Positions 3,150 to 44,926 of a stretch of 64,000 bases of DNA are shown here, in pieces. The position numbers and the translations under genes are program-made. Origin of the DNA: Sphingomonas sp. RIT328 (GTDB lineage Bacteria > Pseudomonadota > Alphaproteobacteria > Sphingomonadales > Sphingomonadaceae); assembly GCF_000632225.1 (NCBI RefSeq), contig NZ_JFYV01000045.1, positions 1 to 64,000 on the forward strand, read 5' to 3'. How positions within the stretch are numbered: the first letter of the stretch is position 1; each line of letters opens with the position of its first letter. The notes beneath the pieces are model-generated. The model was not told where the DNA came from and searched no databases. It saw only the letters and a list, made by a program, of their open reading frames with translations.

Positions 3150-4556
3150 TCAAGCGGTGGCGGCGGCAAGCCCGTGGCGGCGGCCGTAGCCGAGATAGAC
3201 GAGCAGGCCGATCGCATTCCAGCCGAGGAAGCGGACCAGCGTCGCCTGCGGCAGGCTGACGAGCAGATAGACGCAGCCGAGCACCGCCAGACTGCCGACG
3301 ACGAACGGCGCCGGGCAGCGGAACAGCCGCGGCTGCGCCGGCGCGGTCCGCCGCAGCACCATCATGCACGCCGCCACCGCGATGAAGGCGAGCAGGGTGC
3401 CGGCATTGGCGAGCTCGGCGATCTCGTCGAGGCGGAAGAACCCCGCGACCAGCGCGATCGACACGCCGGTCAGCAGCGTGATCCGCGCCGGCGCGCCGGT
3501 CCGCGGGCTGAGCGTCGCGAGACTGCGGGGCAGCAGGCCGTCACGCGCCATGACGAAGAAGATGCGGCTCTGCCCGTACATCATCACCAGGATCACCGAC
3601 GGCAGCGCGATTACCGCGGCGAGCGCGATCAGATGGGCGGCGAACGGCCGGTCGAGCGAGCGCAGCACCAGCGCCAGCGGCTCGCTCGAATGGGCGAGCG
3701 CGGTGAACGGCAGCGCCCCGACCGCGGCGACCGCGACCGCCATATAGATCAGCGTGCACGCGAGCATCGACCCGACGATGCCGATCGTCAGGTCCCGCCC
3801 CGGGTTCTTCGCCTCCTCGGCGGAGGTCGCGACCGCGTCGAACCCGTAGAAGGCGAAGAAGACGATCGCGGCGGCCGCCATCACCCCGCGCTTGGGGCCG
3901 CCGCTCTCCACCGAGGCGAAGCCATAGGGCATGAACGGGTGGAGGTGATCGGCGTTGAACGCGGGCAGCGCGAAGCCGACGAACACCGCCAGCGCGACCA
4001 GCTTGATCACCACCAGCAGGATGTTGAGCGTCGCGCTCTCGCGCGTGCCGAGCAGCAGCAGCCCCATCACGCCGAGCGCGACCAGCACCGCGGGCAGGTT
4101 GATCAGCCCGCCGCCATGCGGCCCGGCGAGGAGGAGCGCGGGAAGGTGCACTCTCGCCGATTCGATCCAGCCGACCAGATAGCCCGCCCAGCCGACCGCG
4201 ACGGTCGAACAGGCGAGCGAATATTCGAGGATCAGGCTCCATCCGACCACCCAGGCCACCGTCTCGCCGAGCGCGGCATAGCTGAACGTATAGGCGCTGC
4301 CCGCCGCGGGGATCATCGTCGCCAGCTCGGCATAAGCGAGCGCGGCGCAGGCGCAGACCGCACCGGCGATCGCAAAGGCGAGGATCACCGCGGGTCCCGC
4401 GCGCTCCGCCCCGACGCCGGTCAGCGTATAGATGCCGGTGCCGACGATCGCCCCCACCCCCAGTGCGATGAGATGCGGCCACGACAGCGTCTTGGCGAGC
4501 GCCTGCCCCGCCTGCTGGCGGACGACGGCGTCGAGGGATTTGCGCGGGCCGAGCAT
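3150..4556 (-). CDS. APC-family amino-acid permease
   Basis: Inner-membrane amino-acid transporter of the amino acid-polyamine-organocation superfamily, 468 aa with about 12 hydrophobic segments. The first membrane segment has the characteristic GVGAIVGTGIYTLTG motif (about residues 33-47). The layout is closest to cationic amino-acid transporter-like permeases. It is the last gene of the hydroxyproline operon, 31 bp after the GntR regulator, so uptake of hydroxyproline or a hydroxyproline peptide product is a reasonable guess from position; substrate is not shown by sequence. The start at 4556 is the first ATG (MLGPRKSL) of the family-like region. Confidence 0.88.
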   Translation of the reverse strand: MLGPRKSLDAVVRQQAGQALAKTLSWPHLIALGVGAIVGTGIYTLTGVGAERAGPAVILAFAIAGAVCACAALAYAELATMIPAAGSAYTFSYAALGETVAWVVGWSLILEYSLACSTVAVGWAGYLVGWIESARVHLPALLLAGPHGGGLINLPAVLVALGVMGLLLLGTRESATLNILLVVIKLVALAVFVGFALPAFNADHLHPFMPYGFASVESGGPKRGVMAAAAIVFFAFYGFDAVATSAEEAKNPGRDLTIGIVGSMLACTLIYMAVAVAAVGALPFTALAHSSEPLALVLRSLDRPFAAHLIALAAVIALPSVILVMMYGQSRIFFVMARDGLLPRSLATLSPRTGAPARITLLTGVSIALVAGFFRLDEIAELANAGTLLAFIAVAACMMVLRRTAPAQPRLFRCPAPFVVGSLAVLGCVYLLVSLPQATLVRFLGWNAIGLLVYLGYGRRHGLAAATA

Positions 4557-4587
4557 GAGCGATCCTCTCCTGTTATGATGATGGCAC

Positions 4588-5235
4588 CTAGCTGGCGCCG
4601 AATTGCTCCCGCAGGTCGGCGAGCGTCGCGCCGATATGCGCGGCGAGCAGGGCTTCGAGCCGCGCGCCGTCGCGGGCCAGGAACGCATCGAGCAGCGCGC
4701 GATGCTCCTGATGCGCGCGCGCGTCGCGCCCGGCGGGGGCGAGATGCGCGACGACATAGCGTTCGGCGAGGATCGACAGCCGCTCGACCAGTTGCGTGGT
4801 GAGCAGCCGGTCGCCCGGTCGCACCAGCGCGACGTGGAACTCGCGGTTGCGGATCGCCACCGCGGCGAGGTTGCTGCCCGCGGCGCAATCGAGCCGCTCG
4901 AACGCCTGCACCGCCGCGTCGCGCCCCGGCGGTCCGGCGACCTGCGCGGCATAGGCCGCGGCGGCGGGTTCGATCGCGAGGCGCAGCGCGTAGATCTCCT
5001 CCGCCTGCCCGGCGCAGAGGGCGCGCACCATATAGCCGCGATTGGCCTGGCTGGTCAGCAGCCCTTCCTGCTGCAACCGGCCGAGCGCCTCGCGCAGCGG
5101 GATCTTGCTGACGCCCAGCTCGGCGGCGAGCGCGTCCTGACGCAGCGGCGTCTCGGTCGGCAGCTCGCCGGTGATGATCCGTTCGCGGATGATCTCGAAC
5201 ACGCGTTCGGACAGGGTGCGGATGACGATGCTCAT
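4588..5235 (-). CDS. GntR-family (FCD/FadR type) transcriptional regulator
   Basis: A 215-aa one-component regulator. The N-terminal winged helix-turn-helix spans about residues 10-75 (RIITGELPTETPLRQDALAAELGVSKIPLREALGRL is its core region, read in pieces), and the rest is an all-helical FCD ligand domain with candidate metal-binding His/Asp residues. Regulators of this type commonly control hydroxyproline and other amino-acid catabolic operons. It sits between the epimerase and permease genes, and matching palindromes occur in both divergent promoters of the locus (7210-7221, 14864-14922), so it is the likely local regulator with a hydroxyproline intermediate as inducer. That role is inference. 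Confidence 0.9.
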   Translation of the reverse strand: MSIVIRTLSERVFEIIRERIITGELPTETPLRQDALAAELGVSKIPLREALGRLQQEGLLTSQANRGYMVRALCAGQAEEIYALRLAIEPAAAAYAAQVAGPPGRDAAVQAFERLDCAAGSNLAAVAIRNREFHVALVRPGDRLLTTQLVERLSILAERYVVAHLAPAGRDARAHQEHRALLDAFLARDGARLEALLAAHIGATLADLREQFGAS

Positions 5236-5257
5236 CGCGGCGCCGGCGGCAGCGCGA

Positions 5258-6256
5258 TCATGTCACCTGGAAACCTGCCCAGAAGGTGTCGGCGCGGTCG
5301 ATCCAGATCGTGTTGAAGCCGGTGGCGATCGCCGACCCCTCGATCGACGGGATGATCGCCGGCGTGTCGCCGAGCCGCGTCTCTGCCTCGACCCGCCCGG
5401 TAAAGCGGCTGCCGATATAGCTTTCGTGGACGAACCGGTCCCCGACGGCGAGCCGGCCGCCGGCATGGAGATGCGCGAGCCGCGCCGAGGTGCCGGTGCC
5501 GCACGGCGACCGGTCGATCGCCTTGTCGCCGTAGAAGACCGCGTTGCGCCCGTCGGCGCCCGCGCCGCGCGGTGCGTCCGCCCACAGCACGTGGCTGACG
5601 CCGCGGATCGTCGGATCGAGCGGATGGACCGGCTCGAACGCCTCCCGCACCGCCGCGCGCACCCGCCGGCTGAGCGCGATGATCCGGTCGGCGCCGAGGT
5701 CATCGAGCCCGGCATAGCCCCCCTGCGGCTCGACGATCGCATAATAATTGCCGCCATAGGCGACGTCGATCGACAGCGGCCCGATCCCCTCGACATCGAT
5801 CTTGATGCCCTGCGCCGCGACATAGGAGGGCACGTTGGTGATGCGCACCGCGGTCACCTTCTCGCCCGCCGTCTCATAGGCGATGTCGATCACCCCGGCG
5901 GGCACCTCGACGCGCAGTCGCCCCGGCGTCGCCGGCTGGATCAGCCCGTGTTCGAGCCCGAAGGTGACGATGCCGATCGTGCCGTGACCACACATCGGCA
6001 GGCAGCCGCTCGTCTCGATGAACAGGATGCCGATATCGGCGTCGGGCAGCGTCGGCGGATAGAGGAAGCCGCCCGACATCATGTCGTGCCCGCGCGGTTC
6101 GAAGCACAGGCCGGTGCGGATCCAGTCGAAGCGCGCCAGGAAATCCTGGCGCCGCTCCGACATCGACTGCCCGCGCAGCAGCGGTGCACCGCCGGCGACG
6201 AGGCGGACGGGATTGCCCGCGGTGTGGCCGTCGATGCAAAAGAAGGTGTGGCGCAC
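5258..6256 (-). CDS. 4-hydroxyproline 2-epimerase (proline racemase family)
   Basis: Converts trans-4-hydroxy-L-proline to cis-4-hydroxy-D-proline, the first step of bacterial hydroxyproline catabolism. The 332-aa protein has both catalytic cysteines of the epimerases: Cys89 in MCGHGT and Cys252 in SPCGTGTSA. In the related trans-3-hydroxyproline dehydratases the second cysteine is replaced by Thr, which argues against that activity. The GHDMMSGG segment is also family-typical. The start is a GTG at 6256, 9 bp after the deaminase stop codon. Neighbours encode the next two enzymes of the pathway. Confidence 0.92.
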   Translation of the reverse strand: MRHTFFCIDGHTAGNPVRLVAGGAPLLRGQSMSERRQDFLARFDWIRTGLCFEPRGHDMMSGGFLYPPTLPDADIGILFIETSGCLPMCGHGTIGIVTFGLEHGLIQPATPGRLRVEVPAGVIDIAYETAGEKVTAVRITNVPSYVAAQGIKIDVEGIGPLSIDVAYGGNYYAIVEPQGGYAGLDDLGADRIIALSRRVRAAVREAFEPVHPLDPTIRGVSHVLWADAPRGAGADGRNAVFYGDKAIDRSPCGTGTSARLAHLHAGGRLAVGDRFVHESYIGSRFTGRVEAETRLGDTPAIIPSIEGSAIATGFNTIWIDRADTFWAGFQVT

Positions 6257-6265
6257 CGCTCCGGC

Positions 6266-7180
6266 TCAGGCCGCCGCGGCGACGTCGAGCGACGGCCGCG
6301 TCGCCGCCGCCTGTTCGACCATCGCGATCACCTCGGCCCGGCGCGCGCCTTCCAGCACGTAACGCGGCGGCAGCACGCGCTCCGACCCGCGGCCCATCAC
6401 CTGCTCGGCAAGCTTGATCGACTGGACCAGATCATGTTCGGCATCGAGGTGGAGCAGCGGCATGAACCAGCGATAGATTTCCATCGCCTTGGCATGATCG
6501 CCGCGCTCGAACGCGCGCACCAGCTCGACCGATTCGCGCGGAAAGGCGTTGGTCAGGCCGGACACCCAGCCCTGCGCACCGAGATACAAGCCTTCGAGCG
6601 CGACGTCGTCGAGCCCGGCGAACAGCACGTAGCGGTCGCCGAATGCGTTGCGGAAGTCGGTGAAACGCCGCGTGTCGGGCGCGCTTTCCTTGACCGCGAC
6701 GATGTTCTTGACCGGCACGAGGGCGCTCAGCACCGCTTGGTCGATCACCGTCCGATAGGCGGGCGGATTGTTGTAGAGCATGATCGGCAGGCCGGTCTGG
6801 TCGGCGACGCCCTTGAAATGGTTCACCAGCTCATGCGGCTTGGGAACATAGACCATCGGCGGCAGCAGCATCAGCCCGTCCGCCCCCGCCTTCTCGGCGG
6901 CCTGCGCGTAACGGACGGCGCGGCGGGTGTCGTATTCCGACACGCCGGTGACCACCGGAACGCGCCCCGCCACCGCTTCGACGATCGCGCTCAGCGTCGT
7001 CACCTTCTCGTCGAAATCGAGCGAGTTATTCTCTCCGACGGTACCCAGCGCGATCACCCCGGTCACGCCGTCCTTGACGAGATCGTCGACGACGCGCTGC
7101 GTATCGGCCAGATCGATCGAAAGGTCCTCGCGCACCTGAGTCGTCACCGCGGGGAAGACCCCTTTCCACCCGATCGTCAT
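6266..7180 (-). CDS. DapA/HpaI-like aldolase family, probable pyrroline-4-hydroxy-2-carboxylate deaminase
   Basis: Member of the dihydrodipicolinate synthase / N-acetylneuraminate lyase family (304 aa, class I TIM barrel). The Schiff-base Lys164 lies in VAVKES, Tyr136 in LYNNP, and the substrate carboxylate loop is GTVGEN (46-51). In the hydroxyproline pathway the family member HypD deaminates and dehydrates pyrroline-4-hydroxy-2-carboxylate to 2-oxoglutarate semialdehyde. The neighbouring epimerase and FAD oxidase make this role more likely than lysine synthesis. It is the first gene of a leftward operon and shares a 66-bp divergent promoter region with the FAD oxidase. Confidence 0.85.
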   Translation of the reverse strand: MTIGWKGVFPAVTTQVREDLSIDLADTQRVVDDLVKDGVTGVIALGTVGENNSLDFDEKVTTLSAIVEAVAGRVPVVTGVSEYDTRRAVRYAQAAEKAGADGLMLLPPMVYVPKPHELVNHFKGVADQTGLPIMLYNNPPAYRTVIDQAVLSALVPVKNIVAVKESAPDTRRFTDFRNAFGDRYVLFAGLDDVALEGLYLGAQGWVSGLTNAFPRESVELVRAFERGDHAKAMEIYRWFMPLLHLDAEHDLVQSIKLAEQVMGRGSERVLPPRYVLEGARRAEVIAMVEQAAATRPSLDVAAAA

Positions 7181-7209
7181 CTAACAGCGTCCTTTATCAT
7201 TCGTGGAAT

Positions 7210-7221
7210 ATCGTATACCAA
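7210..7221. promoter_or_regulatory. Candidate GntR operator between deaminase and oxidase genes
   Basis: ATCGTATACCAA in the 66-bp gap between divergent genes matches the perfect palindrome ATCGTATACGAT at 14864-14875 in 9 of 12 positions. The position between two catabolic operons suits a repressor site. The binding protein is inferred to be the GntR regulator at 4588-5235. Confidence 0.55.
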
Positions 7222-7246
7222 AGTTGCGGAGCGCGGCAAGGACAAG

Positions 7247-8482
7247 ATGATGCAACGACAAGTCGCGGTGATCGGCGGGGGCGTGGTGGGGCTGGCGAGC
7301 GCGGTGCGGCTCGCCCGCGACGGTCATCGCGTCACCGTGTTCGATCATGATGATTCGCGACAAGCGCCGTCGTGGAACAACGCCGGCCATATCGCGATCG
7401 AGCAGGTCGAGCCGCTCGCCTCGCCCGCCTCGGTGCGCAGCGCGTGGCGGCGGCGTTTCGCGGCGGGCGGCGCGCTCGACCTGCCGCCGGCGATGGCGCG
7501 CGACTGGGTCGCCTTCCTGCCGCGCTATCTCGCCGCGAGCCGCCCGTCGCGCTTCCGCCACGGCAGCGCGGCGCTCGGCAGCCTGCTCGCCACCGCGATG
7601 CCGGCATGGCGACGGCTCGCCGCCTCGCTCGACACGCACGGCCTGCTGCGCGAGGACGGGCATCTCGTCGCCTGGTGCGATGCGCGCGCGGCGCAGGCCG
7701 GCGCCGCGGCGTGGCGACGGGCCGAAACCGGAGCGGTGACGGTCGCCGACGCCGGTGCCGAAGACCGCACCCGCATCGCCGCGGTCTGCGCGGTGCCGAT
7801 CGCAGGCGCGGTCCGCTTCACCGGCAGCGGCCAGATCGCCGACCTCTCCACGCTCGCCGATGCGCTCGAAGCCGCGCTCGAAAGCGCCGGCGGACGGATC
7901 GTCCGCGCCGCCGCGAACGTCGCCGTCCGTGATGGCCGGGCGACGATCGTCGGCCATGACGCCGACCTGGTGCTGGTCGCGGCGGGGATCGGCAGCGCGC
8001 CGCTGCTCGCCGCCGCCGGCGAGCCGGCACCGCTGATCGCCGAGCGCGGCTATCATATCCGTGCCGCCGCCGATCACTGGCCCGCCGATTGTCCGCCGAT
8101 CGTCTTCGAGGAACGCTCGATGATCGTCACCCGCTACGCCGATCGCGTCCAGGCGTCGGGCTTCGTCGAATTCGGCAATGCCGCCGCGCCGCCCGATCCG
8201 CGCAAATGGCAGCGGCTCGAAGCGCAGGTCCGGGCGCTCGGGCTGGCGATGGCACCGCCGTTCAGCCGCTGGATGGGCGCCCGCCCGACCCTGCCCGATT
8301 ATCTGCCGGCGATCGGCCGTTCGAAGCGCGTCGCCAATCTGGTCTACGCCTTCGGCCACCAGCATCTCGGCTTGACGCTCGCCGCGACGACGGGCGAGAT
8401 CGTCGCCGCGCTGATCGCGGATCGCCCCGCGCCGGTCGATTGCGCGCCCTTTTCCCTCGAACGTTTCGGAGCAAGACGATGA
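7247..8482 (+). CDS. FAD-dependent D-amino-acid (D-hydroxyproline) dehydrogenase
   Basis: A 411-aa DadA-like flavoprotein. The N-terminal Rossmann FAD motif VIGGGVVGLASA is at about residues 7-18, and the C-terminal GHQHLGLTLAATTG block is typical of D-amino-acid dehydrogenases. Beside a 4-hydroxyproline epimerase the likely substrate is cis-4-hydroxy-D-proline, oxidised to pyrroline-4-hydroxy-2-carboxylate. The start is the first of two tandem ATG codons at 7247; the same frame is open for 2 kb upstream, but that part is antisense to the catabolic genes and not coding. The stop codon overlaps the next start as ATGA. Confidence 0.88.
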   Translation: MMQRQVAVIGGGVVGLASAVRLARDGHRVTVFDHDDSRQAPSWNNAGHIAIEQVEPLASPASVRSAWRRRFAAGGALDLPPAMARDWVAFLPRYLAASRPSRFRHGSAALGSLLATAMPAWRRLAASLDTHGLLREDGHLVAWCDARAAQAGAAAWRRAETGAVTVADAGAEDRTRIAAVCAVPIAGAVRFTGSGQIADLSTLADALEAALESAGGRIVRAAANVAVRDGRATIVGHDADLVLVAAGIGSAPLLAAAGEPAPLIAERGYHIRAAADHWPADCPPIVFEERSMIVTRYADRVQASGFVEFGNAAAPPDPRKWQRLEAQVRALGLAMAPPFSRWMGARPTLPDYLPAIGRSKRVANLVYAFGHQHLGLTLAATTGEIVAALIADRPAPVDCAPFSLERFGARR

Positions 8483-9657
8483 CCATCGGCGGATCGACCG
8501 CAGCGGCGGAGCTCGCCACCCTTTCTGTCTGGTCCGATCCCGCGCCGGTGATCGGGGCGGGCGAGCGCAGCGATCGACTTGCCCGCGCCCGCGCGCTGAC
8601 CGCCGAACAGGGCGCCGATGCGCTGCTCGTCACCGCCGGCGCCTCGCTGCGCTACTTCACCGGCGTCGGCTGGTCGCCGACCGAGCGGCTGGTCGCGCTG
8701 CTGCTGCCGGTCGACGGCGAACCGATCGTGATCTGCCCGGCGTTCGAACGCGGCTCGCTGCTCGCCGAGCTCGAGATCGCCGCCGATCTGCGGCTGTGGG
8801 AAGAGGATGAGGATCCGCACGCGCTGGTCGTCCAGGCCTTGCCGGCGGGCGCGACGCTCGCGCTCGACCCGCTGTTGCCGTATGCGGCGGCGCGGCGGCT
8901 CGGCACCCGGCTCGTGCTTCAGGACGGGGCGACGATCATCGATGCGTTGCGGATGATCAAATCGCCCGCCGAGCTCGCGCTGATGGCCCAGGCCAAGGCG
9001 ATGACGCTCGAAGTCCAGCGCCGCGCCGCGCGCATCCTCGCCCCCGGCATCCGGGCCAGCGAAGTGAAGCGCTTCATCGACGACGCGCATCGCGCGCTCG
9101 GCGCGCCGGGATCGACCTTCTGTGCGGTGCAATTCGGCACCGCCACCGCCTTTCCGCATGGCCTGCCCGGCGATCAGCTGCTCGCCGAAGACCAATTGGT
9201 GCTGGTCGACACCGGCTGCGCGATCCACGGCTATCAGTCGGACATCACCCGCACCTATGCCTTCGGCCGCGTCGACGACGATATCCGCGCGACCTGGGCG
9301 CTGGAGAAGGAGGCGCAGGCCGCGGCCTTCGCCGCCGTGCGGCCCGGCGTGCCATGCGAGGCGGTCGACGCGGCGGCGCGGCGCGTGCTGGAGGGAGCGG
9401 GGCTCGGACCCGACTATCGCCTGCCCGGGCTGCCGCATCGCACCGGCCACGGCATCGGCCTGTCGATCCACGAACCCGCCTATCTGGTCCGCGGCGATAC
9501 CACGCCGCTGGCACCCGGCATGTGCTTCTCCAACGAGCCGATGATCGTCGTGCCCGACCGCTACGGCATCCGCCTGGAGGATCATTTCCACGTCACCGCC
9601 GACGGTGCGGCGTGGTTCACCGAACCGCAGCCGTCGATCGACCGCCCGTTCGATTGA
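8479..9657 (+). CDS. M24-family metallopeptidase (Xaa-Pro peptidase / prolidase type)
   Basis: A 392-aa pita-bread peptidase with an N-terminal creatinase-like domain and a C-terminal catalytic domain. All five metal ligands are visible in order: the Asp pair in LVDTGCAIHGYQSDITRTY, His in HRTGHGIGLSIHE, Glu in SNEPMIV and Glu in IRLEDHFHV. M24 enzymes of this kind cut bonds next to proline. No signal peptide is seen, so it is cytoplasmic. Translational coupling (ATGA) with the D-hydroxyproline oxidase suggests that it releases proline or hydroxyproline from imported peptides. Confidence 0.9.
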   Translation: MTIGGSTAAAELATLSVWSDPAPVIGAGERSDRLARARALTAEQGADALLVTAGASLRYFTGVGWSPTERLVALLLPVDGEPIVICPAFERGSLLAELEIAADLRLWEEDEDPHALVVQALPAGATLALDPLLPYAAARRLGTRLVLQDGATIIDALRMIKSPAELALMAQAKAMTLEVQRRAARILAPGIRASEVKRFIDDAHRALGAPGSTFCAVQFGTATAFPHGLPGDQLLAEDQLVLVDTGCAIHGYQSDITRTYAFGRVDDDIRATWALEKEAQAAAFAAVRPGVPCEAVDAAARRVLEGAGLGPDYRLPGLPHRTGHGIGLSIHEPAYLVRGDTTPLAPGMCFSNEPMIVVPDRYGIRLEDHFHVTADGAAWFTEPQPSIDRPFD

Positions 9658-9663
9658 GATGAC

Positions 9664-9697
9664 GGCGTGATCCTGCAACGCCGGGCAGGATCACGCC
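9664..9697. terminator. Bidirectional hairpin between convergent peptidase genes
   Basis: A perfect 13-bp stem (GGCGTGATCCTGC / GCAGGATCACGCC) with an 8-base loop lies in the 56-bp gap between the M24 peptidase and the DUF885 gene, which converge. It lacks a strong U-run but fits a shared terminator. Confidence 0.65.
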
Positions 9698-9713
9698 AGC
9701 CGTTCGACGGCTC

Positions 9714-12487: not shown

Positions 12488-14844
12488 AGCGTCTCTCCCG
12501 GCTTGGCGGTGTAGATGCGCAGGCCGAATACCGGCCCCGCACTGCTGCCGTTATGCGGCACGACGCGGATGCGGACCTTGCTCTTGCCGCGGGTCAGCGG
12601 TTCGGGAAGCGGATAGACGACGTCGAAGAAGCGCCCCGGATGATCGTTGGCGAGATGCTGTGTCGCCACCCTGACATTGTCGACGAGCAGGTCGAAGTCG
12701 CGCGGCCGTTCGTCGCCCCAATAAGTCGCCTGGAGCAGCAGCGGCCCCGGCCGCACCGCCATCGTGCATTCGAACCAGCCGCCCGAGCGGGCATCGCGCC
12801 CCGCCCGGCCGCGGTAGGTGAGCGGATAGGAGAGTTCGCTGGTCAGGCCGTGGTCGCGCTCGGGCTGCATCTCGCCAAGGTGCATGACGTCGACCGACCG
12901 TGCGGCGATATCGCGCAGCCGCGCCTGTTCGGCGGTGAACGCCGCCTCCTCGCGCCGCCATTCGGCATCGTCGAAGCGCCGGAAATAGACGGCGCTGCGG
13001 CGACGATATTGGCGGTAGAAGGGGACGATGTCGCGGTCCCCCGGTCGCAAAATGCCGCGCGTCGCGTAGCGCGCCGCCGTAGCATCGGTGGCGACGATGC
13101 CGGCGAGCAGATCGCTGCCGACCAACGCCGGGTCCGCCTGCGCCCACGGCGTCGTCGCCGGGCCGAGGTCGGCGGCAAGCACAAGCGGCCCTCGCACCAG
13201 CGCGACGGTGCGCGGATCGCCCGGCGCCGGCTCGAGCCGCAGGGCGAGCGGGAGTTCGATCGCGATCCGGTCGCCCGCGCGCCAGTGCCGCGTCACGATC
13301 GCATAGCCGCGGGCGCGGACGGGCGTTACCGCGGCGCCGTTGACGGTGACGCGCGCGCCCTCCCCCGCCCAGGCCGGGATGCGCAGCGCCACCGGGAAGC
13401 GCCCGGCGCGCAGCTTGGCGAAGGTCAGCGTCGCTTCGCCCTCGAACGGATAGCGCGTCGCCAGCGACACGGTCGCGCCGCGCGCCGCCCAGTCGGCATC
13501 GGCGGCGGTGTAGAGGTTGACGTAGAAGGTGCCGTCCGTCCCCTCCCAGAAGACGGAATCGCCATGTTTCGCGTGGCTCTCCATCCCCGATCCGACGCAG
13601 CACCAGAAGGCATCGTCGGCGGTGGTCGAATAGTCACGCGCCACGCCGCTCATCAGCGGCGTCATATAGGTGAAGCCACCCGTCGCCGGGTCCTGCTGCG
13701 CAAGCACATGATTGAGGTGCGCACGCTCGTAATAATCGAACAGGGCGCCGTCCGGCTGCCACGACCATAGCTGCCGAGTCAGCTTGAGCATGTTGTACGT
13801 GTTGCAATGTTCGCACGTCTGTTCGGTGATGTGATCGGCGATGGTGTCCGGCGCGGTGAAATATTCGCGGTCGGCGTTGCCGCCGATGACATAGGAATGA
13901 TGCGCGGTCACCGCGTTCCAGAAGGTGCGCGCCGCAGCCGCCGCGGCGGGATCGCCCGCCACCTCGTACAGCCGGGCGAGGCCGATCAGCTTGGGCACCT
14001 GCGTATTGGCATGGAGGTTGGCGAGCCGATCCTCTCCGCGCGCGAGCGGATCGAGCACCGTGTCGTCATGGATCAGCCGCGCCATGCGCAGCCAGCGGGC
14101 ATCGCCGGTGCGCGCATGGAGCTCGGCATAGCTTTCGTTGAGGCCGCCATATTCGCAGCCGAGCACCGTCTGCACCTGCGCCGGGGTCAGTGCCGCGAAG
14201 ACGCCGGCGATATAGCCGGCGAGCCCCTCCGCCACGCCGAGTGCGCGCGGATCCCCCCAGGTCTGATGGACGTCGAGCAGCCCGGCGAGCCACTTATGGA
14301 CGGTGTACAGCGGTGACCAGGAGCCGTTGAGATCGAACCCGCCCGAGGTGATCTCGCCACGCCGGATCTCGGCGAAGATCACTTCGCCATCGACGATCGT
14401 GCCGTCCTTGGTCTTGCGGCCGAGCGCGCCGACATAGCCGGTGCCGCGCGTCGCCTGTGCCAGCGCCAGCTCGCCGACGATATAGTCGGCGCGGCGGTGC
14501 AGCTCGGCATCGTGCGTCTGCTGCCAGGTGAGCGCCAGCGCGCTGAGATAATGGCCGAGCGTATGGCCGGCGATCGTATCGCTCTCCCAGCCGCCGTAGA
14601 TCGCCGCCTTCGGTGGCAGTCCCGCATAGAGCCGCACGTTGTGCAACAGCCGGTCGGGGTCGAGCCGCAGCAGATAGCGGTGATTGACCGCCACCGCCGT
14701 CGCCTGATCCGACGGATGCAGGCGGATCGCGGCCAGCGGCAAAGGGCGGGCCTGCGCCATGGGGGTCGGCATCGCCGCGGCGAACGTCCTGCCGGCGAAC
14801 GACAGTGCCGCGGTCCCCATCATCACCTCACGCCGCGACACCAT
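12484..14844 (-). CDS. GH127 beta-L-arabinofuranosidase, Tat-exported
   Basis: Removes non-reducing beta-L-arabinofuranose, in the founding enzyme HypBA1 from the oligoarabinosides on hydroxyproline of extensin. The 786-aa protein (DUF1680 fold) keeps the unusual active site: Glu345 and Cys347 in TCEHCNTYN and the tandem Cys415-Cys416 in FWCCVGSG. These match HypBA1 Glu338, Cys340, Cys417 and Cys418, three of which bind zinc with Cys417 as nucleophile. The N-terminus MVSRREVMMGTAALSFAG is a twin-arginine signal, so it folds with its metal before export. It shares a 141-bp divergent promoter region with the TonB receptor. Confidence 0.93.
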   Translation of the reverse strand: MVSRREVMMGTAALSFAGRTFAAAMPTPMAQARPLPLAAIRLHPSDQATAVAVNHRYLLRLDPDRLLHNVRLYAGLPPKAAIYGGWESDTIAGHTLGHYLSALALTWQQTHDAELHRRADYIVGELALAQATRGTGYVGALGRKTKDGTIVDGEVIFAEIRRGEITSGGFDLNGSWSPLYTVHKWLAGLLDVHQTWGDPRALGVAEGLAGYIAGVFAALTPAQVQTVLGCEYGGLNESYAELHARTGDARWLRMARLIHDDTVLDPLARGEDRLANLHANTQVPKLIGLARLYEVAGDPAAAAAARTFWNAVTAHHSYVIGGNADREYFTAPDTIADHITEQTCEHCNTYNMLKLTRQLWSWQPDGALFDYYERAHLNHVLAQQDPATGGFTYMTPLMSGVARDYSTTADDAFWCCVGSGMESHAKHGDSVFWEGTDGTFYVNLYTAADADWAARGATVSLATRYPFEGEATLTFAKLRAGRFPVALRIPAWAGEGARVTVNGAAVTPVRARGYAIVTRHWRAGDRIAIELPLALRLEPAPGDPRTVALVRGPLVLAADLGPATTPWAQADPALVGSDLLAGIVATDATAARYATRGILRPGDRDIVPFYRQYRRRSAVYFRRFDDAEWRREEAAFTAEQARLRDIAARSVDVMHLGEMQPERDHGLTSELSYPLTYRGRAGRDARSGGWFECTMAVRPGPLLLQATYWGDERPRDFDLLVDNVRVATQHLANDHPGRFFDVVYPLPEPLTRGKSKVRIRVVPHNGSSAGPVFGLRIYTAKPGETL

Positions 14845-14863
14845 CGCCCGCTCCTTCCGACTT

Positions 14864-14922
14864 ATCGTATACGATGGATATAGGAAATTTGCCAGCGACG
14901 CCAGACGGATATTGTATACCTT
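14864..14922. promoter_or_regulatory. Two candidate GntR operators in GH127 / TonB receptor promoter
   Basis: ATCGTATACGAT (14864-14875) is a perfect 12-base palindrome, and ATTGTATACCTT (14911-14922) is a close match, centred 47 bases apart on a plausible same-face spacing. The related site at 7210-7221 lies in the other divergent promoter of this locus. Together they suggest one regulator for all four transcripts. Confidence 0.6.
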
Positions 14923-14985
14923 ATTATTGACATGTATCGCTTGCTCGAATCAGCGACAGAAAGTTGCGATGAAAGGGGCGTCAGA

Positions 14986-17958
14986 ATGACTAAATTGCCT
15001 ACCGCATTACGTGTGTCCGCGGGTCTTGCCGCGCTCGCCTGCGCGCTCGTCAGCCACGCGGCGTCTGCGCAGATCGCCCCGGTACCGCAGGCCGATACCG
15101 GCGCCGCGACGCTGACCGACAAGCCCGATGCGGAGGCGAGCGAAGAGGTGGTGGTGACCGGCACCCGCATCCGCCGCCCCGATCTGATCAGCAACAGCCC
15201 GCTGACCACCGTCAACGCCCAGGAGCTCGCGCTGCAGGGCGCGACCAATGTCGAAAACGTCCTCAACCGGTTGCCGCAGTTCACCGCCGACGCCAACGAG
15301 AACGTCTCGAACGGGTCCGACGGCACTGCGAACGTCAACCTCCGCAATCTTGGCGCGAGCCGCGTGCTGACGCTGATCAACGGCCAGCGCATGCTGCCGA
15401 CCCAGGCGATCGACATCAATTTCGTCCCCTCGGCGGTCGTCGAGCGCATCGACGTCGCGACCGGCGGCGCCTCCGCGGTCTACGGCTCCGACGCGCTGTC
15501 GGGCGTGGTCAATTTCATCCTGCGCGACAAACTCGACGGCGTCCGCCTCGACGTCCAGTCGAGCGTCGCCGATCACACCAACGACAACAGCTTCCTGCGC
15601 TCGATCATCGGCGCGCGCGGCTATAGCAACGCGCCCGAACATGTCCGCGACGGCGGCAAGCAGGACGTCAACGCCGCGGTCGGCAAGACCTTCCTCGACG
15701 GGCGGCTCAACATCACCGCTTATGCGGGCTATCGCCATACCGATCCGGTGCTGCAATCGACCCGCGACGTGTCGGCCTGTGCGCTCAACAGCGCATCCAC
15801 CACCTTCACCTGCGGCGGGTCGAGCAACACGCCTTATGGCACCTTCACCCCGCTCGCCGGTCCGGCCGCGGGACAGAAGCTGACCAACAGCATCGACGGC
15901 AGCCGCACCTGGGTTCCCTATGTCAGCTCCGTCTATGCCTATAATTACGCGCCGCTGAACTATATCCAGCGCGCCGACGACCGCTACAATGCCGGCGCCT
16001 TCCTGCACCTCAAGATCGCCCCCGCCGCGGAAATCTACGGCAGCTTCATGTATATGAAGGACAAGAGCTTCTCGCAGGTCGCTCCCTCGGCGCTCTATTT
16101 CGGGCAGACCTATACGGTCACCTGCAACAACCCGCTGCTCAGCGCCAGCCAGGCGCAGACGCTGTGCGGCACTGCCGCCGGCACAGCGGCGACGCAGAAC
16201 ACGCTGATCGGCTACCGGCTCAGCGGCACCGGCGCGCTGCCACGGCGCGACAGCCTGCAACATGAGGATTTCCGGTCGATGGTCGGCGTCCGCGGCGATC
16301 TCGGCAGCGGGTTCCATTATGACGCCAGCGTACTGCGCTCGGTCGCGCATTACGACGAGACCTATCTGAACGACGTCAGCGTCGCCAAGGCGCAGCGCGC
16401 GCTGCTCGCCGTGCCCGACGGCAAGGGCGGTGCCGTCTGCCAGTCGGTGCTCGACGGAACGGATACGGCATGCGTTCCGGTCAACGTCTTCCAGGCCAAT
16501 GCGATCACCAGCGCCGCGGCCAATTACCTCTACGCCCCCAAGTCGACGCAGGGCCGCTATGCGCTCAGCGTCATCTCGGGCAGCGTCACCGGCGATCTCG
16601 GCGAATTCGGTATCACCAGTCCGTTCGCGCATGACGGCGTCGGCATCGTCCTCGGCGGCGAGCACCGTCGCGAGACCTTGCTGTTCACCGGAGACGAACT
16701 GGCGTTGGCGGCCGGCACGCAGAATTCGGACGGCATCATCGCGGTCAACGAAGGCTTCGGCGAAATCGAATTGCCGCTGGTGCAGGACAAGCCGTTCATC
16801 CGCGGCCTGACGCTCAACGGCGGCTTCCGCTACTCGTCCTATAAGAACCGGCAGGATTCCACCGGCTTCCGGTCGAGCTACAACGCCTTCACCTACAAGG
16901 GCGAACTCAGCTGGCAGGTGGTCGAGCCGCTGCGCCTGCGCGCCAGCTACAACCGCGCGATCCGCGCCCCCAATATCACCGAATTGTTCTCCAACCTGTC
17001 GCTCGGCAATGCCAATGCCACCGATCCCTGCGCCGGCGCGGCCCCGACCGCCTCGCTCGCCGCGTGCCAGCTCACCGGCGTCACCGCGGCGCAGTACAAC
17101 AATCGCCTCGTCATCGAATGTCCGGCCGATCAGTGCACCGGCCAGTTCGGCGGCAACCGCAACCTGAAGCCCGAAAAGGCCGACACCTATACCGCCGGCG
17201 CCGTCTTCGCGCCGAACGGCGGCCGGACCCTGTCGGTCTCGCTCGATTATTATCACATCAAGGTGGAGGACTATATCGGCAGCATCGATCTCAACACGAC
17301 GATCGGCCAATGCTTCTCGACCGGCAATCCCTTCTATTGCGGGCTGTTCCATCGCGACCCGCTGACCGGCTCGATCTTCGGCACCGGCTATGTCGTGTCG
17401 ACGACGCTCAACACCGGCTATCTGCAGACCTCGGGCCTCGACGTCACCGGGACGGTCGTCATCCGCCTCGGCAAGTTCGGCAAGATCGCCACCGATTTCG
17501 TCGGCACCTATCTGCTCCAGCAGATCACGCAGCCGCTGCCCGGCGGCGGCACCTATGACTGCAAGGGGCTGTTCGGCTATTCGTGCGGCCAGCCCAATCC
17601 GACCTGGCGGCACAATCTGCGCGTCACCTGGAGCCCCGACGACACGGTCAGCCTGTCGGCCAACTGGCGCTACCTCGACGCCACCCGCCTGTCGTCGACG
17701 TCGAGCAACAGCTTCCTGACCGGTGATGCCGACCCGATCGACGCGCGCATCCCCGCCTACAGCTATTTCGATCTTACCGCGGCGGTCGCGATCAACGACA
17801 ATCTGTCGCTGCGGCTGGGCGCGAACAATCTGCTCGACAAGAGCCCGCCGGCGCTGGCGTCGGGCGTGCTCAATCTCTTCGGCAACGGCAATACCTATCC
17901 CGGCGTCTATGATGTGCTGGGTCGGCGGATCTTCGCCGGCGCGACCATACGGTTCTAG
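14986..17958 (+). CDS. TonB-dependent outer-membrane receptor (glycopeptide candidate)
   Basis: A 990-aa TonB-dependent transporter: signal peptide ending at SHAASAQ, a plug domain opening at EEVVVTGTRIRR, then a beta barrel ending in a terminal aromatic residue (GATIRF). The plug blocks NVENVLNRLPQF and GASAVYGSDALSGVVNF are typical of the family. I start at the ATG at 14986, preceded by GAAAGG, rather than at the upstream in-frame ATG at 14932, which would put about 18 residues before the signal peptide. Context points to import of arabinosylated hydroxyproline peptides; no ligand can be read from sequence. Confidence 0.92.
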   Translation: MTKLPTALRVSAGLAALACALVSHAASAQIAPVPQADTGAATLTDKPDAEASEEVVVTGTRIRRPDLISNSPLTTVNAQELALQGATNVENVLNRLPQFTADANENVSNGSDGTANVNLRNLGASRVLTLINGQRMLPTQAIDINFVPSAVVERIDVATGGASAVYGSDALSGVVNFILRDKLDGVRLDVQSSVADHTNDNSFLRSIIGARGYSNAPEHVRDGGKQDVNAAVGKTFLDGRLNITAYAGYRHTDPVLQSTRDVSACALNSASTTFTCGGSSNTPYGTFTPLAGPAAGQKLTNSIDGSRTWVPYVSSVYAYNYAPLNYIQRADDRYNAGAFLHLKIAPAAEIYGSFMYMKDKSFSQVAPSALYFGQTYTVTCNNPLLSASQAQTLCGTAAGTAATQNTLIGYRLSGTGALPRRDSLQHEDFRSMVGVRGDLGSGFHYDASVLRSVAHYDETYLNDVSVAKAQRALLAVPDGKGGAVCQSVLDGTDTACVPVNVFQANAITSAAANYLYAPKSTQGRYALSVISGSVTGDLGEFGITSPFAHDGVGIVLGGEHRRETLLFTGDELALAAGTQNSDGIIAVNEGFGEIELPLVQDKPFIRGLTLNGGFRYSSYKNRQDSTGFRSSYNAFTYKGELSWQVVEPLRLRASYNRAIRAPNITELFSNLSLGNANATDPCAGAAPTASLAACQLTGVTAAQYNNRLVIECPADQCTGQFGGNRNLKPEKADTYTAGAVFAPNGGRTLSVSLDYYHIKVEDYIGSIDLNTTIGQCFSTGNPFYCGLFHRDPLTGSIFGTGYVVSTTLNTGYLQTSGLDVTGTVVIRLGKFGKIATDFVGTYLLQQITQPLPGGGTYDCKGLFGYSCGQPNPTWRHNLRVTWSPDDTVSLSANWRYLDATRLSSTSSNSFLTGDADPIDARIPAYSYFDLTAAVAINDNLSLRLGANNLLDKSPPALASGVLNLFGNGNTYPGVYDVLGRRIFAGATIRF

Positions 17959-17972
17959 GACGAAGGGCCCGG

Positions 17973-20666
17973 ATGTCGATCACCCGCCTGCCCGCGCTCG
18001 GCGCGCTGTTCCTCCTCGCCGGGGCGGCACCGGCGGTGCCGGTCACGCCATTCGCGATCGGCGCGCTGCACGGTACGCTGCGCGCCGACACGCAGACGCT
18101 GGCGCAGCTCTCCCCCGCCGGCGAGCCGGCCTTCAGCTTCGTGCCGACCGCGCGCGAGGCGGAGCGGTCGGGGGATGGCTATAATCACGTCGGGGATCTC
18201 GACCTGCGGCTGCGCGTCGCGGGCGGGACGTGGCGCGACTTCGGCTCGGCGCATCGCCGCCGGCCGATCGTCGCGCTGCCGACGCCGCGCGGCACGATCG
18301 CCGCGGCGGACATCACCGCGACGATGGGCGACGGCATGCCGCTCCTCGTCGAGCGCCGCTGGCAGATCGATCGCGGCGCGCTCGCCCTGCGCTTCCGGCT
18401 GACCAACCGCAGCGCGGCCGCGGTCGAGATCGGCGGGCTCGGCATGCCGATGGCCTTCGACAATATCATCACCGGACGCGACCTCGATCAGGCGCATGCG
18501 CAGGCGAGCTTCGCCGATCCCTATATCGGCCGCGACGCCGGTTATCTCCAGGTGACCCGGCTCAACGGCCAGGGTCCGGCGCTGCTCGTCCTGCCCGGCC
18601 GCGATACGCCGTTCGAGGCCTATGCCCCGCTCGCCGATGCCGCGCATGCGCCGGCGGACGCGGTGTTCACCGAAAAGACGCGCCGCGAACAGACGTTCGA
18701 GGGCTTTTACGACTGGCTCGTCCACTCGCGCGGGTTCGCCGAGCGCGAATGGCGCAACGCCGGTGGGCAATGGAATGCGCCGACCAGCCGCCTGCTCGCG
18801 CCGGGTGCGTCGCTGGAGGTCGGCGTCCGCTTCGTCGCCGCGCCGACGATCCGCGGCATCGAACCGACGCTGATCGCGCAGCGCCGCCCGGTCGCGATCG
18901 GCCTGCCCGGCTATGTCGTGCCGACCGAACAGAGCGCCAGCCTGTTCGTCCGCGCGCCGTCGCGCCTCACCGGCTTCGACAGCAGCCCGGCGGACGCGCT
19001 CGCCGTCCGGCGCGCGGGCAGCATCCACGGCTGGACGCGGCTGGCGATCCGCAGCCATGGCTATGGCCCGGCGCGGCTGACGCTCCATTATGCCGACGGG
19101 CAGCAGCAGACGGTCAGCTATTACGTCACCCGGCCGCTCGACACGACGATGGCGGCGCTCGGCCGGTTTGCGACGACGCGGCAATGGTATGAGGGCAAAG
19201 GCGATCCGTTCGGCCGCTCGCCCGCGATCCTCACCTATGACCACGAGGCGCAGCGGATCGTCGATGTCGAACCGCGCGTGTGGATCGCCGGGATGAGCGA
19301 CGAGGGCGGCGCGGGCAGCTGGGTCGCGGCGATGATGAAGCAGCTCGATCATCCCGATGCGGCCGAGGTCGCCAAGCTCGAGCGGCTCGTCGACGAAACA
19401 GTGGTCGGCCGCTTGCAGGTCGCCGACGGGCCGCATCGCGGCGGCGTGCGCAAGAGCCTGTTCTATTACGATCCCGCCCGCTTCCCGACGCTGTATCGCG
19501 ATCCGGCGGCGTGGAAGAGCTGGACGGCGTGGGATGCCAAACAGGCCGGCGATCTCGGCCGATCGTACAATTATCCGCATGTCGCGATCGGCCATTGGGT
19601 GCTCTACCGGCTGGCGCGCAACCATGTCGGCCTCGTCACGCGGCATGACTGGCGCTGGTATCTCGACTGGGCGCAGACGACGATCGTCGCGATGATGCGC
19701 GACGCGCCCTATTATACGCAATTCGGCCAGATGGAGGGCAACGTCTTCCTCGACATCCTCGCCGATCTGCGCCGCGAGGGGATGACCGCCGAAGCCGATC
19801 GGATCGAGGCGCTGATGCGCGCGCGAACCGACCATTGGGCAGGCCTGCGCTATCCGTTCGGCAGCGAGATGGCGTGGGATTCGACCGGCCAGCCCGAGGT
19901 TTACGACTGGCTGCGCCATTTCGGCTATGAGCGGCAGGCGGTGCAGACGCGTGAGGTGATCCTCGGCTATGATCCGACTCTGCCGAGCTGGGGCTATAAC
20001 GGCAATGCGCGCCGCTATTGGGACTTCCTCTACGGCGGCAAGACGGCGCGGATCGAGCGGCAGATCCACCATTACGGTTCGACCAACAATGCGCTGCCGC
20101 TGTTCGATTCATTCCGCCGCGATCCCACCGATCTGCATCTGCTGCGCGTCGCCTACGGCGGGCTGATGGGTGGGGTCACCAACATCGATCGCGATGGTTT
20201 TGCCTCCGCCGCCTTCCATGCCTGGCCCGACCGGATGCAATGGGATGCGTATAGCGGCGACTATGGCATGGGCTATTTCGCGCATGCCTATGCGGTGGCG
20301 AGCTATCTGGTCGACGACCCGACCTTCGGCTGGCTCGGCTTCGGCGGCGAGGTGACACAGGCCGCCGGCAGCGTGACGATCCGGCCGCGCGACGGCGCCC
20401 GCACGCGGCTCTTCATCGCCCCCGCCGGCCAGTGGATCACGCTCGCCGCCGGTCGGATCGCCGCGGCGCGCTACGCGCCGAAGACGGGAGCGATCACGCT
20501 GACGCTCGATCCCGCCGATGCCGCCACGCCCGCCGCGCGGCTGTTCGTCGCGCGCACCACGCCGGCCGGGCGGGACTATGCCGTCGCCGGCGGCACGGCG
20601 GAACGCGGCGGCGTCACGCTGCCGCTCGCAACGACGCCGGTCGAGGTGACGCTGCGCCCGCGCTGA
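17973..20666 (+). CDS. Secreted DUF5695-like large protein, possible glycoside hydrolase
   Basis: An 897-aa exported protein (signal peptide in the first 22 residues) with a beta-sandwich-like N-terminal half, an alpha-helical middle (about 430-780) rich in Trp and Tyr as in alpha/alpha-barrel sugar enzymes, and a short beta C-terminus. It resembles DUF5695 proteins, which are found in polysaccharide loci; I match that family from memory with moderate certainty. Conserved-looking stretches include NYPHVAIGHW, GQMEGNVF and HHYGSTNNALPLF. It follows the TonB receptor by 14 bp with a GAAGGG ribosome site, so the pair forms an operon. The activity is unknown. Confidence 0.7.
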   Translation: MSITRLPALGALFLLAGAAPAVPVTPFAIGALHGTLRADTQTLAQLSPAGEPAFSFVPTAREAERSGDGYNHVGDLDLRLRVAGGTWRDFGSAHRRRPIVALPTPRGTIAAADITATMGDGMPLLVERRWQIDRGALALRFRLTNRSAAAVEIGGLGMPMAFDNIITGRDLDQAHAQASFADPYIGRDAGYLQVTRLNGQGPALLVLPGRDTPFEAYAPLADAAHAPADAVFTEKTRREQTFEGFYDWLVHSRGFAEREWRNAGGQWNAPTSRLLAPGASLEVGVRFVAAPTIRGIEPTLIAQRRPVAIGLPGYVVPTEQSASLFVRAPSRLTGFDSSPADALAVRRAGSIHGWTRLAIRSHGYGPARLTLHYADGQQQTVSYYVTRPLDTTMAALGRFATTRQWYEGKGDPFGRSPAILTYDHEAQRIVDVEPRVWIAGMSDEGGAGSWVAAMMKQLDHPDAAEVAKLERLVDETVVGRLQVADGPHRGGVRKSLFYYDPARFPTLYRDPAAWKSWTAWDAKQAGDLGRSYNYPHVAIGHWVLYRLARNHVGLVTRHDWRWYLDWAQTTIVAMMRDAPYYTQFGQMEGNVFLDILADLRREGMTAEADRIEALMRARTDHWAGLRYPFGSEMAWDSTGQPEVYDWLRHFGYERQAVQTREVILGYDPTLPSWGYNGNARRYWDFLYGGKTARIERQIHHYGSTNNALPLFDSFRRDPTDLHLLRVAYGGLMGGVTNIDRDGFASAAFHAWPDRMQWDAYSGDYGMGYFAHAYAVASYLVDDPTFGWLGFGGEVTQAAGSVTIRPRDGARTRLFIAPAGQWITLAAGRIAAARYAPKTGAITLTLDPADAATPAARLFVARTTPAGRDYAVAGGTAERGGVTLPLATTPVEVTLRPR

Positions 20667-44685: not shown

Positions 44686-44724
44686 GCTATACTCTCCACC
44701 TGGGCGATGCACTCGCTCACCCCT

Positions 44725-44926
44725 GTTGGTATCGCTATCAGGCCAAGCCCGCACGTCAAGGCCGCAAACGGTCGTACCCGAGACGCCGACCTCCCCGCAA
44801 CCGGCGCAATCCCGTTTCGATACGATCGATCGACGATCGATGCGCGGGCACCGCCTCCGACATCGAAATCCCCGGCCCGAACCGCTTGCGGAAAATCGAT
44901 CGCCTGCATATGGTAGCGCTATCCCG
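44725..44926. promoter_or_regulatory. Two LacI-type operator candidates between xylD and GH43-xylBA
   Basis: GTTGGTATCGCTATCAG (44725-44741) and ATATGGTAGCGCTATCCCG (44908-44926) lie at the two sides of the 298-bp divergent promoter region, one near each start. Both fit TGGTAGCGCTA with few changes. The stretch between them has no gene. Confidence 0.55.

Follow-up and report, generated by a model that had tools for sequence, protein, structure and literature searches.

Hydroxyproline-rich glycoproteins (HRGPs) make up a large fraction of the protein of plant walls. Bacterial enzymes that deglycosylate them have been described in Xanthomonas euvesicatoria and Bifidobacterium longum. The Xanthomonas enzyme XeHypBA1, which is labelled GH127 in PMC6085000 and GH146 in PMC10850190, takes arabinose (Ara) directly off hydroxyproline (Hyp), with a preference for Ara-Hyp and slight activity on β-Ara2 (PMC6085000). 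In the accessible text of the papers examined, such enzymes are described without a hydroxyproline route. Here we describe a conserved, apparently co-regulated locus that would supply one. It occupies positions 3150-20666 of a 64,000-nucleotide stretch of contig NZ_JFYV01000045.1 from Sphingomonas sp. RIT328 (the window) and combines a GH146 candidate β-L-arabinofuranosidase with a 4-hydroxyproline 2-epimerase (HypE) and further predicted enzymes of Hyp catabolism. Judged from its sequence, the locus is likely to serve the utilization of plant HRGPs, most likely of extensin-type arabinosylated Hyp peptides.

The original prediction for this DNA had listed a GH127 enzyme, a 4-hydroxyproline epimerase, a DadA-like oxidase, a deaminase, M24 and DUF885 peptidases, a permease, a GntR regulator and a TonB receptor. 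Every gene so named was found in its place (Table 1), and two that had been overlooked, encoding an Ldh_2 oxidoreductase and a DUF5695 protein, were added.

Results

Identity of the glycosidase and the hydroxyproline enzymes

Among solved structures in the Protein Data Bank (PDB), the window glycosidase matched GH146 5opj (BT0349) at 7.6e-129, 8k7x at 4.3e-48, GH127 4qjy at 6.3e-26 and 3wre (HypBA1) at 2.7e-10. As the GH146 structure ranks far above HypBA1, the predicted GH127/HypBA1 assignment was rejected. The predicted active-site residues stood, since this PF07944 glycosidase has the E-x-C...CC motif, as E345, C347, C415 and C416, which we take to be the zinc and nucleophile residues. By its kinship to BT0349 and XeHypBA1 and by the cysteine motif, the protein is a GH146 member and a candidate β-L-arabinofuranosidase. 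The change of family favours the predicted use of Hyp-linked arabinosides, because XeHypBA1, which cleaves arabinose directly from Hyp, is itself a GH146. Twin arginines (R4 and R5) were invariant in 14 aligned GH146 proteins, the window enzyme included, which suggests export by the twin-arginine translocation (Tat) pathway.

The relationships of the enzyme were analyzed in a FastTree phylogeny of 113 GH146 proteins, from which copies of named loci (L034, L038, L044, L045, L217), a protein that was too short (L116) and two loci lacking a GH146 match (L223, L224) were left out, while near-identical rows such as L047/L049 were retained. The tree, which carries a long-branch warning (L221 with L127) and uneven composition, placed the window enzyme in a 72-row clade with Hyp-linked proteobacterial and Xanthomonadaceae GH146 proteins (local support 99). 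A separate group of 16 rows, clade B (support 97), includes the second GH146 of the same genome. This copy (L050, G000:C34:5750-8041) is ~50% identical, and because a copy of the palindromic site described below, TCGTATACGA, lies ~150 bp upstream, it may share the regulon.

In some Xanthomonadaceae loci, genes for GH121, GH43, DUF6055, GH146 and a TonB receptor occur together. The GH121 of L211 has HypBA2 (6m5a) as its best PDB match (1.5e-207) and partners of the same size in L212, L213 and L216. On the basis of this gene layout, which is akin to the published XeHypBA2-AA-BA1 set, the Xanthomonadaceae rows of the tree are probably XeHypBA1 orthologues. The DUF6055-type protein recurs in Xanthomonadaceae (L211:6815-8518) and Novosphingobium-type (L058, L064, L065) GH146 loci. 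A companion GH43, probed with a protein from one of the loci related to the window, was 58-63% identical to the Xanthomonadaceae GH43. The genome of the window also contains a HypAA-like GH43, a trait of the Xanthomonas-type HRGP system, on another contig (L228, G000:C22:26126-27616; 68% identity to L041:4397-5971). The palindromic site occurs ~300 bp before it, and no other probe match was found within ~9 kb on either side.

The window epimerase scored 537 bits with PRK13971 (cut-off 376), carries both active-site cysteine motifs (MCGHG and SPCGTG) and is the sole Pro_racemase match in its genome (E 0.001). Judged by family matches, the three families of the pathway from Hyp to α-ketoglutarate, namely HypE, D-Hyp oxidase/dehydrogenase and deaminase, occur together in the window. 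The best solved match of Ldh_2 was 1wtj (3e-69), named ureidoglycolate dehydrogenase / delta1-piperideine-2-carboxylate reductase. By analogy with the MLD2 neighbours of the proline racemase superfamily (PMC4113996, accessible part), Ldh_2 probably serves a proline ketimine.

Conservation of the pairing of GH146 with hydroxyproline genes

Genomes of the window's family (n = 199) were searched for both GH146 and Pro_racemase. The GH146 type of the window, defined by at least 55% identity and named clade A after this first survey (the tree was made later), was held by 15 genomes, its own included, and in 13 of these the epimerase gene lay within 11 kb. In the other two, the epimerase was elsewhere in the genome (G083) or the two genes were on separate contigs of 65.6 and 3.4 kb (G182). 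A full-length, full-scoring HypE-family gene was present in 15/15 genomes with this GH146 type vs 12/184 without it (Fisher p 1.3e-15, uncorrected for kinship). The nearness of the glycosidase to a proline-racemase-family gene, which the original prediction had expected among sphingomonads, was thus borne out. That the pairing might be peculiar to this genome was ruled out by its occurrence in other sphingomonads, in one Granulicella and in one Bacteroidota locus with epimerase, and by similar gene sets in a Caulobacter metagenome-assembled genome (MAG) and in Azospirillum-type genomes.

A further 55 clade-A loci were compared, with the window not counted, the Xanthomonadaceae group set apart and genes counted in the fetched flanks. 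They contained genes for DUF885 (42), deaminase (30), HypE family (29), DUF5695 (29), Ldh_2 (26), GntR (26), DadA (18), M24 (18), APC permease at ≥60% identity (18), GH43 (18), GH27 (8) and aldehyde dehydrogenase (ALDH; 8). HypE, deaminase or DadA was found in 35 of the 55 vs none of the 16 clade-B loci, which also lacked M24, Ldh_2, DUF885, DUF5695, GH43 and GH27 and held ALDH in four cases. The HypE-family genes reached at least 60% identity in 27 of the 29 loci. The exceptions were L063, with both cysteines, and L090, which may encode a dehydratase because threonine replaces the second cysteine. Searches of 29 genomes, chiefly ones whose locus lacked the epimerase plus some clade-B controls, gave an epimerase match (E 1e-20) in 24, several of them merely 34-43% identical. 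Strains with the locus include Sphingobium sp. SYK-6 (L086) and Sphingomonas paucimobilis NBRC 13935 (L053). In S. paucimobilis-type genomes (L053, L056, L083, L100) the deaminase and Ldh_2 genes stay with GH146, and HypE, DadA and M24 are at another locus (seen for L053 and L056).

The 24 loci with both HypE and deaminase gave 19 gene-order strings, some differing by flank limits only, and relative layouts were hence counted for GH146 and deaminase alone. All four possible layouts were seen (11, 8, 4 and 1 loci), with 13 different next-neighbour pairs around GH146, which suggests that the set was rearranged yet kept together, beyond mere inheritance as a block.

Related loci were also found in other phyla. 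In Granulicella paludicola (L063), HypE with both cysteines, DAO, a Pyr_redox/BFD protein, deaminase and ALDH are followed by GH127, GH146, DUF885, an APC-like permease, GH43 and an S9 peptidase. Six DUF5695 regions came from 198 Bacteroidota genomes. One genome (G678; L231, L221) encodes a hybrid two-component regulator, a DadA-like protein (22%), HypE (59-63%), ALDH, deaminase, M1 and M24 peptidases, GH146 (36%), DUF5695, GH97 and a distant GH43. L219 holds GH146, DUF5695, deaminase and ALDH; L220 holds M24, a distant GH43, DUF5695, GH146, S9 and a distant permease; L222 holds GH146 and DUF5695; and L223 and L224 hold DUF5695 alone among the probes. A Verrucomicrobia MAG (L082/L233) has S9, HypE, deaminase and ALDH beyond GH146, and because of its strong likeness to Granulicella, mis-binning or transfer is possible. 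The GH146 of this MAG (L082) and of two Granulicella (L063, L062) shares 65-67% identity with that of sphingomonads, and this closeness suggests recent inter-phylum transfer or MAG mis-binning.

A palindromic site in front of both halves

Both divergent promoters of the locus, between the deaminase and DadA genes and between the GH146 and TonB receptor genes, contain a palindromic ATCGTATACGAT-like site. The form TNGTATACNA matched twice in the 64-kb window vs 0.08 expected. Clade-A loci, window included, were scanned within 250 bp upstream of genes for GTATAC with at least one matching flank. The site preceded GH146 in 38/55, deaminase in 26/30, DadA in 14/15 and DUF5695 in 8/26 cases, but HypE in 1/22, as expected of a downstream operon gene, APC in 0/17 and GH43 in 0/18; random 280-bp windows contained it in 2.5%. 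Its consensus was AATATCGTATACGATATT. None of the sites fell inside detected genes (627 kb) vs 107 outside (536 kb, unprobed genes included). In loci holding both GH146 and deaminase, the site stood before both in 24 of 30, so that the co-regulation of the two halves, on which the original prediction depended, is supported at the level of the DNA sequence. Elsewhere, it preceded GH146 in one of 14 clade-B cases (the copy in the window's own genome) and in 0/16 of the Xanthomonadaceae group (1/16 with a looser match), and it preceded the deaminase in 12 of 14 Hyp regions fetched without this GH146.

The form of the site resembles the TKGT/ACMA motif of the FadR subfamily quoted in PMC6608401 (accessible part). 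Both features by which a HypR regulon is recognized, a GntR/FCD regulator and a shared palindromic operator before hyp genes, were observed. Elsewhere, another GntR/FCD gene recurs next to GH146 (L065:9144-9899, with similar open reading frames (ORFs) in six further loci). The operator fits a GntR/FCD (HypR-like) regulon that takes in plant-glycan enzymes, and we infer that the window's own GntR protein binds it. Given the distribution of the operator and the known HypR regulons, the simplest reading would be that a Hyp regulon recruited the plant-glycan enzymes.

The DUF5695 protein

DUF5695 was found in 8 of the 199 family genomes, all of them among the 15 with a clade-A GH146. An AF2 model computed from 35 sequences (pLDDT 90.1, pTM 0.91) has an N-terminal β-sandwich and a helical barrel; a first model from 7 sequences (pLDDT 58) was discarded. 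The best fold match was the PL27 enzyme BACCELL_00875 (5no8; Z 34.0, rmsd 3.1, 643 residues, about 17% identity), which was also matched by a 35-row sequence profile (E 6.5e-14). PDB sequence searches with DUF5695 alone or with a 7-row profile gave no relative. Fold and profile indicate that DUF5695 is probably a distant PL27 relative. A GH121 fold was considered and rejected, as Foldseek and VIA-align ranked PL27 first; GH121 6m5a did not appear among the 50 rows listed, which carries no weight against it. Because PL27 releases rhamnose (Rha) from gum arabic by β-elimination (PMC8377490, accessible part), DUF5695 could uncap a glycan like that of arabinogalactan-proteins (AGPs), or it may have another activity on HRGP glycans. 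In one genome (G211, that of Acetobacter malorum L085), the DUF5695 match was split into two abutting pieces (L164/L167) that share a single 703-aa frame and lack the central portion of the family model.

DUF5695 gave 0/149 matches in Xanthomonadaceae-group genomes, in a search made without a positive control by a model that did match 8/199 family genomes. GH121 gave 0/199 in the family genomes, the window's own included, at E 1e-20, likewise without a positive-control genome. This mutual absence would fit a replacement, though it is confounded with lineage. A broader proposal, that a HypR-type regulon was rebuilt in several phyla for the complete mineralization of extensin-type glycoproteins, with DUF5695 as a new family of carbohydrate-active enzymes replacing GH121 on Hyp-linked arabino-oligosaccharide, is put forward only tentatively, and we consider it rather doubtful.

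Layout of the locus and its surroundings

The Ldh_2 gene overlaps each of its neighbours, DUF885 and GH146, by 4 bp, so that the three genes look like one operon. No signal peptide was seen by eye in the M24 peptidase.

Table 1. Positions of the genes and operator sites of the locus in the window.
Feature	Position	Strand	Basis
APC amino-acid permease, candidate Hyp/Pro or short-peptide importer	3150..4556	-	Pfam AA_permease_2 1.5e-53; start MLGPRK at 4556
GntR/FCD regulator, candidate HypR-like repressor	4588..5235	-	Pfam FCD + GntR
4-hydroxyproline 2-epimerase (HypE), both catalytic Cys	5258..6256	-	NCBIfam PRK13971
DHDPS-family enzyme, candidate Pyr4H2C deaminase (HypD)	6266..7180	-	Pfam DHDPS 1.9e-55
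Operator TCGTATACCA, between deaminase and DadA genes	7211..7220	.	Motif match
DadA-like FAD oxidoreductase, candidate cis-4-hydroxy-D-proline dehydrogenase	7247..8482	+	Pfam DAO 8.7e-44
M24 peptidase, creatinase/prolidase N-domain (Xaa-Pro type)	8479..9657	+	Pfam; 4-bp overlap with DadA
DUF885 peptidase-like protein, N-terminus resembling a signal peptide	9714..11468	-	Pfam 1.2e-151; N-terminus judged by eye
Ldh_2 oxidoreductase, candidate proline-ketimine (pyrroline-2-carboxylate) reductase	11465..12487	-	Pfam; best PDB 1wtj/2cwf/2cwh 3e-69
GH146 candidate β-L-arabinofuranosidase, twin-arginine-like N-terminus	12484..14844	-	Pfam GH127_cat/GH127M/DUF6805; best PDB 5opj 7.6e-129
Operator TCGTATACGA, GH146/TonB-receptor divergent promoter	14865..14874	.	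Motif match
Weaker second site TTGTATACCT, GH146/TonB-receptor promoter	14912..14921	.	Motif match
TonB-dependent receptor, candidate outer-membrane importer of glycopeptides/arabinosides	14932..17958	+	Pfam TonB barrel + Plug
DUF5695, candidate carbohydrate-active enzyme, distant PL27 relative	17973..20666	+	Pfam PF18951 1213 bits

A large plant-polysaccharide region (20667-49918) adjoins the locus, with genes for a cupin, a TonB receptor, a Trp-halogenase-like protein, SASA, GH3, a GH27-like protein, several GH43, esterase-like proteins, xylulokinase and xylose isomerase. A TniB-like ATPase gene at 54468-55463 is probably part of a transposon. Several of the window ORFs scanned were shadow frames. 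The gap ORFs L056:2042, L217:6464, L089:7753, L228:7529 and L228:12119 matched no Pfam family, and some of them may be shadow frames.

Discussion

From the computed gene families, conserved linkage and shared site, we infer the substrates, compartments, regulator-operator match and flux of the following scheme. The TonB receptor would bring glycopeptides into the periplasm, where GH146 would remove the last β-L-arabinofuranose from Hyp, exported DUF5695 would act on another part of the HRGP glycan and exported DUF885 would aid peptide cutting. The APC permease would carry Hyp, Pro or short peptides across the inner membrane, and M24 would split Xaa-Pro/Hyp bonds. HypE, the DadA-like oxidase and the DHDPS-family deaminase would then convert trans-4-Hyp to α-ketoglutarate semialdehyde (α-KGSA), and Ldh_2 would probably reduce pyrroline-2-carboxylate to proline. 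The GntR/FCD HypR-like regulator, acting on ATCGTATACGAT, would govern both halves. Import, sugar stripping, peptide cutting and imino-acid use had all been predicted and are supported by the linkage and the shared site. The predicted order needs revision, as the exported-looking hydrolases would strip the sugar before import through the inner membrane.

Extensin carries Ser-linked galactose. The GH27 genes of the related loci (GH97 in one Bacteroidota locus) could serve this sugar, and together with the XeHypBA1-type enzyme and the GH43 common to Xanthomonadaceae loci they favour extensin, the substrate that had been predicted. AGPs are also possible substrates because DUF5695 is PL27-like. 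The locus could accordingly be read as serving AGPs, that is gum-arabic-like HRGPs, with DUF5695 uncapping Rha-GlcA in the manner of PL27, GH146 removing β-1,3-Araf and the Hyp coming from the AGP backbone. We regard this as possible but unlikely. The fold and profile match of DUF5695 to PL27, a family with the gum arabic activity cited above, speaks for it, as does Bll3HypBA1, a GH146 that acts on AGP (PMC10850190, accessible part). However, DUF5695 is only about 17% identical to PL27, and in the tree the nearest company of the window enzyme includes Xanthomonadaceae GH146 proteins, several of them from XeHypBA1-like loci, to whose GH43 the companion GH43 is 58-63% identical. Moreover, no unsaturated-glucuronyl hydrolase family was found among the scanned gap genes, which cover parts of the loci only.

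Several observations weigh against the use of extensin-type peptides by a single Hyp regulon. DUF5695 resembles PL27, and the activity known for that family is towards gum arabic, an AGP. The 199 family genomes gave no GH121 match, in a search without a positive control, which leaves the removal of Ara2 from Ara3-Hyp without a known enzyme here. Fewer than half of the clade-A loci have the GH43 (18 of 55) or GH27 (8 of 55) partner, and neither is encoded at 3150-20666. No α-KGSA dehydrogenase was present among the scanned window genes and the ALDH probe had no match in the window, the rest of the genome lying outside this search. HypE, deaminase and DadA are all missing from the flanks of 20 of the 55 clade-A loci, several of whose genomes have HypE elsewhere, and from the fetched flanks of all 16 Xanthomonadaceae-group GH146 loci. 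GTATAC without its flanks shows no clear enrichment in the whole window (5 occurrences vs 1.96 expected, a count reached in 6 of 100 shuffles), and the clade-B GH146 of the same genome also bears the operator.

The route from L-arabinose through L-2-keto-3-deoxyarabonate also yields α-KGSA. The DHDPS-family enzyme could hence be the L-2-keto-3-deoxyarabonate dehydratase of the sugar half, in a locus mainly for L-arabinose. In S. paucimobilis-type genomes the DHDPS gene does sit in the GH146 locus with HypE and DadA elsewhere, and a dihydroxy-acid dehydratase-family gene, below the arabonate-dehydratase cut-off, is present at 42907-44754, ~36 kb away in the window. This is nevertheless improbable, since 32 of the 38 interior HypE-type genes listed have a DHDPS gene no more than 1.5 kb away (29 of 35 once three duplicate entries are removed), also in regions without GH146, and the genes identified at 3150-20666 show no other L-arabinose step, although no dedicated search was made. 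That an arabinoside polysaccharide utilization locus and a Hyp/collagen-peptide catabolic cluster are independent modules side by side by chance would agree with the Hyp regions without this GH146 (L132-L151) and the Xanthomonadaceae GH146 loci without Hyp genes, but is highly improbable because the linkage survives all four layouts in 24 loci, 24 of 30 loci have the shared site in front of both halves, the two halves co-occur in 15 of 15 genomes, and distant forms of the parts are found together again in one Granulicella and one Bacteroidota locus.

If the locus serves arabinosylated Hyp peptides as proposed, it assigns a substrate to the Hyp catabolic gene clusters found in sphingomonads and Caulobacterales and allows the fate of HRGPs after deglycosylation to be tested. 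It also draws attention to DUF5695, for which a high-confidence model is available, as a candidate family of enzymes. The original prediction had stated that no described cluster joins the two halves, and in the searchable open literature, which leaves out most subscription papers, we found no paper joining an arabinofuranosidase with 4-hydroxyproline epimerase or hydroxyproline catabolism with extensin. A search for an extensin utilization locus that involves hydroxyproline led to one paper, on gum arabic, and DUF5695 is named in one, on fungal velvet regulators. The parts and their precedents are known; both halves under one operator, the spread of their union and the place of DUF5695 in it were not found described.

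The known systems, compared here on the accessible parts of the cited papers, each share a portion of the locus. In X. euvesicatoria, XeHypBA1/BA2/AA likewise include a GH146 acting on Ara-Hyp and a GH43 acting on Ara4-Hyp, with HRGPs such as extensin as targets, and a broken prolyl-oligopeptidase-like gene lies nearby (PMC6085000). Unlike the window, this species uses GH121, for which the search of 199 sphingomonad-family genomes described above gave no match, and its BA2-AA operon is under HrpX (PMC6085000). The Xanthomonas type further differs in that DUF5695 had no match in the 149 group genomes and the flanks of 16 related loci contained no genes of Hyp catabolism. The B. longum enzymes HypBA1, HypBA2 and HypAA, with Bll4HypBA1, a GH146 acting on Araf-Hyp, also remove β-arabinosides from HRGPs, but there HypBA1 is a GH127, an ABC transporter is used and Hyp catabolism is not named (PMC10850190, PMC7263609). 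The PL27 enzyme BACCELL_00875 shares the β-sandwich and helical barrel fold of DUF5695, at about 17% identity and with a shorter C-terminal part.

On the catabolic side, proline racemase superfamily neighbourhoods resemble the locus in placing HypE with DAAO, DHDPS, ALDH and MLD2 (PMC4113996), and the main text of that survey contains 'arabino' and 'glycosid' 0 times. 'glycosid' is also absent from the main text of the HypR papers PMC5343134 and PMC6608401. In HypR regulons, as proposed here, a GntR regulator ties Hyp catabolism to upstream protein breakdown, and a TonB receptor, prolidases and a putative malate dehydrogenase (hypS) are members (PMC5343134, PMC6608401). Collagen is the upstream source in those regulons, which also take in collagenases and prolidases (PMC5343134), whereas the window has plant-glycan enzymes.

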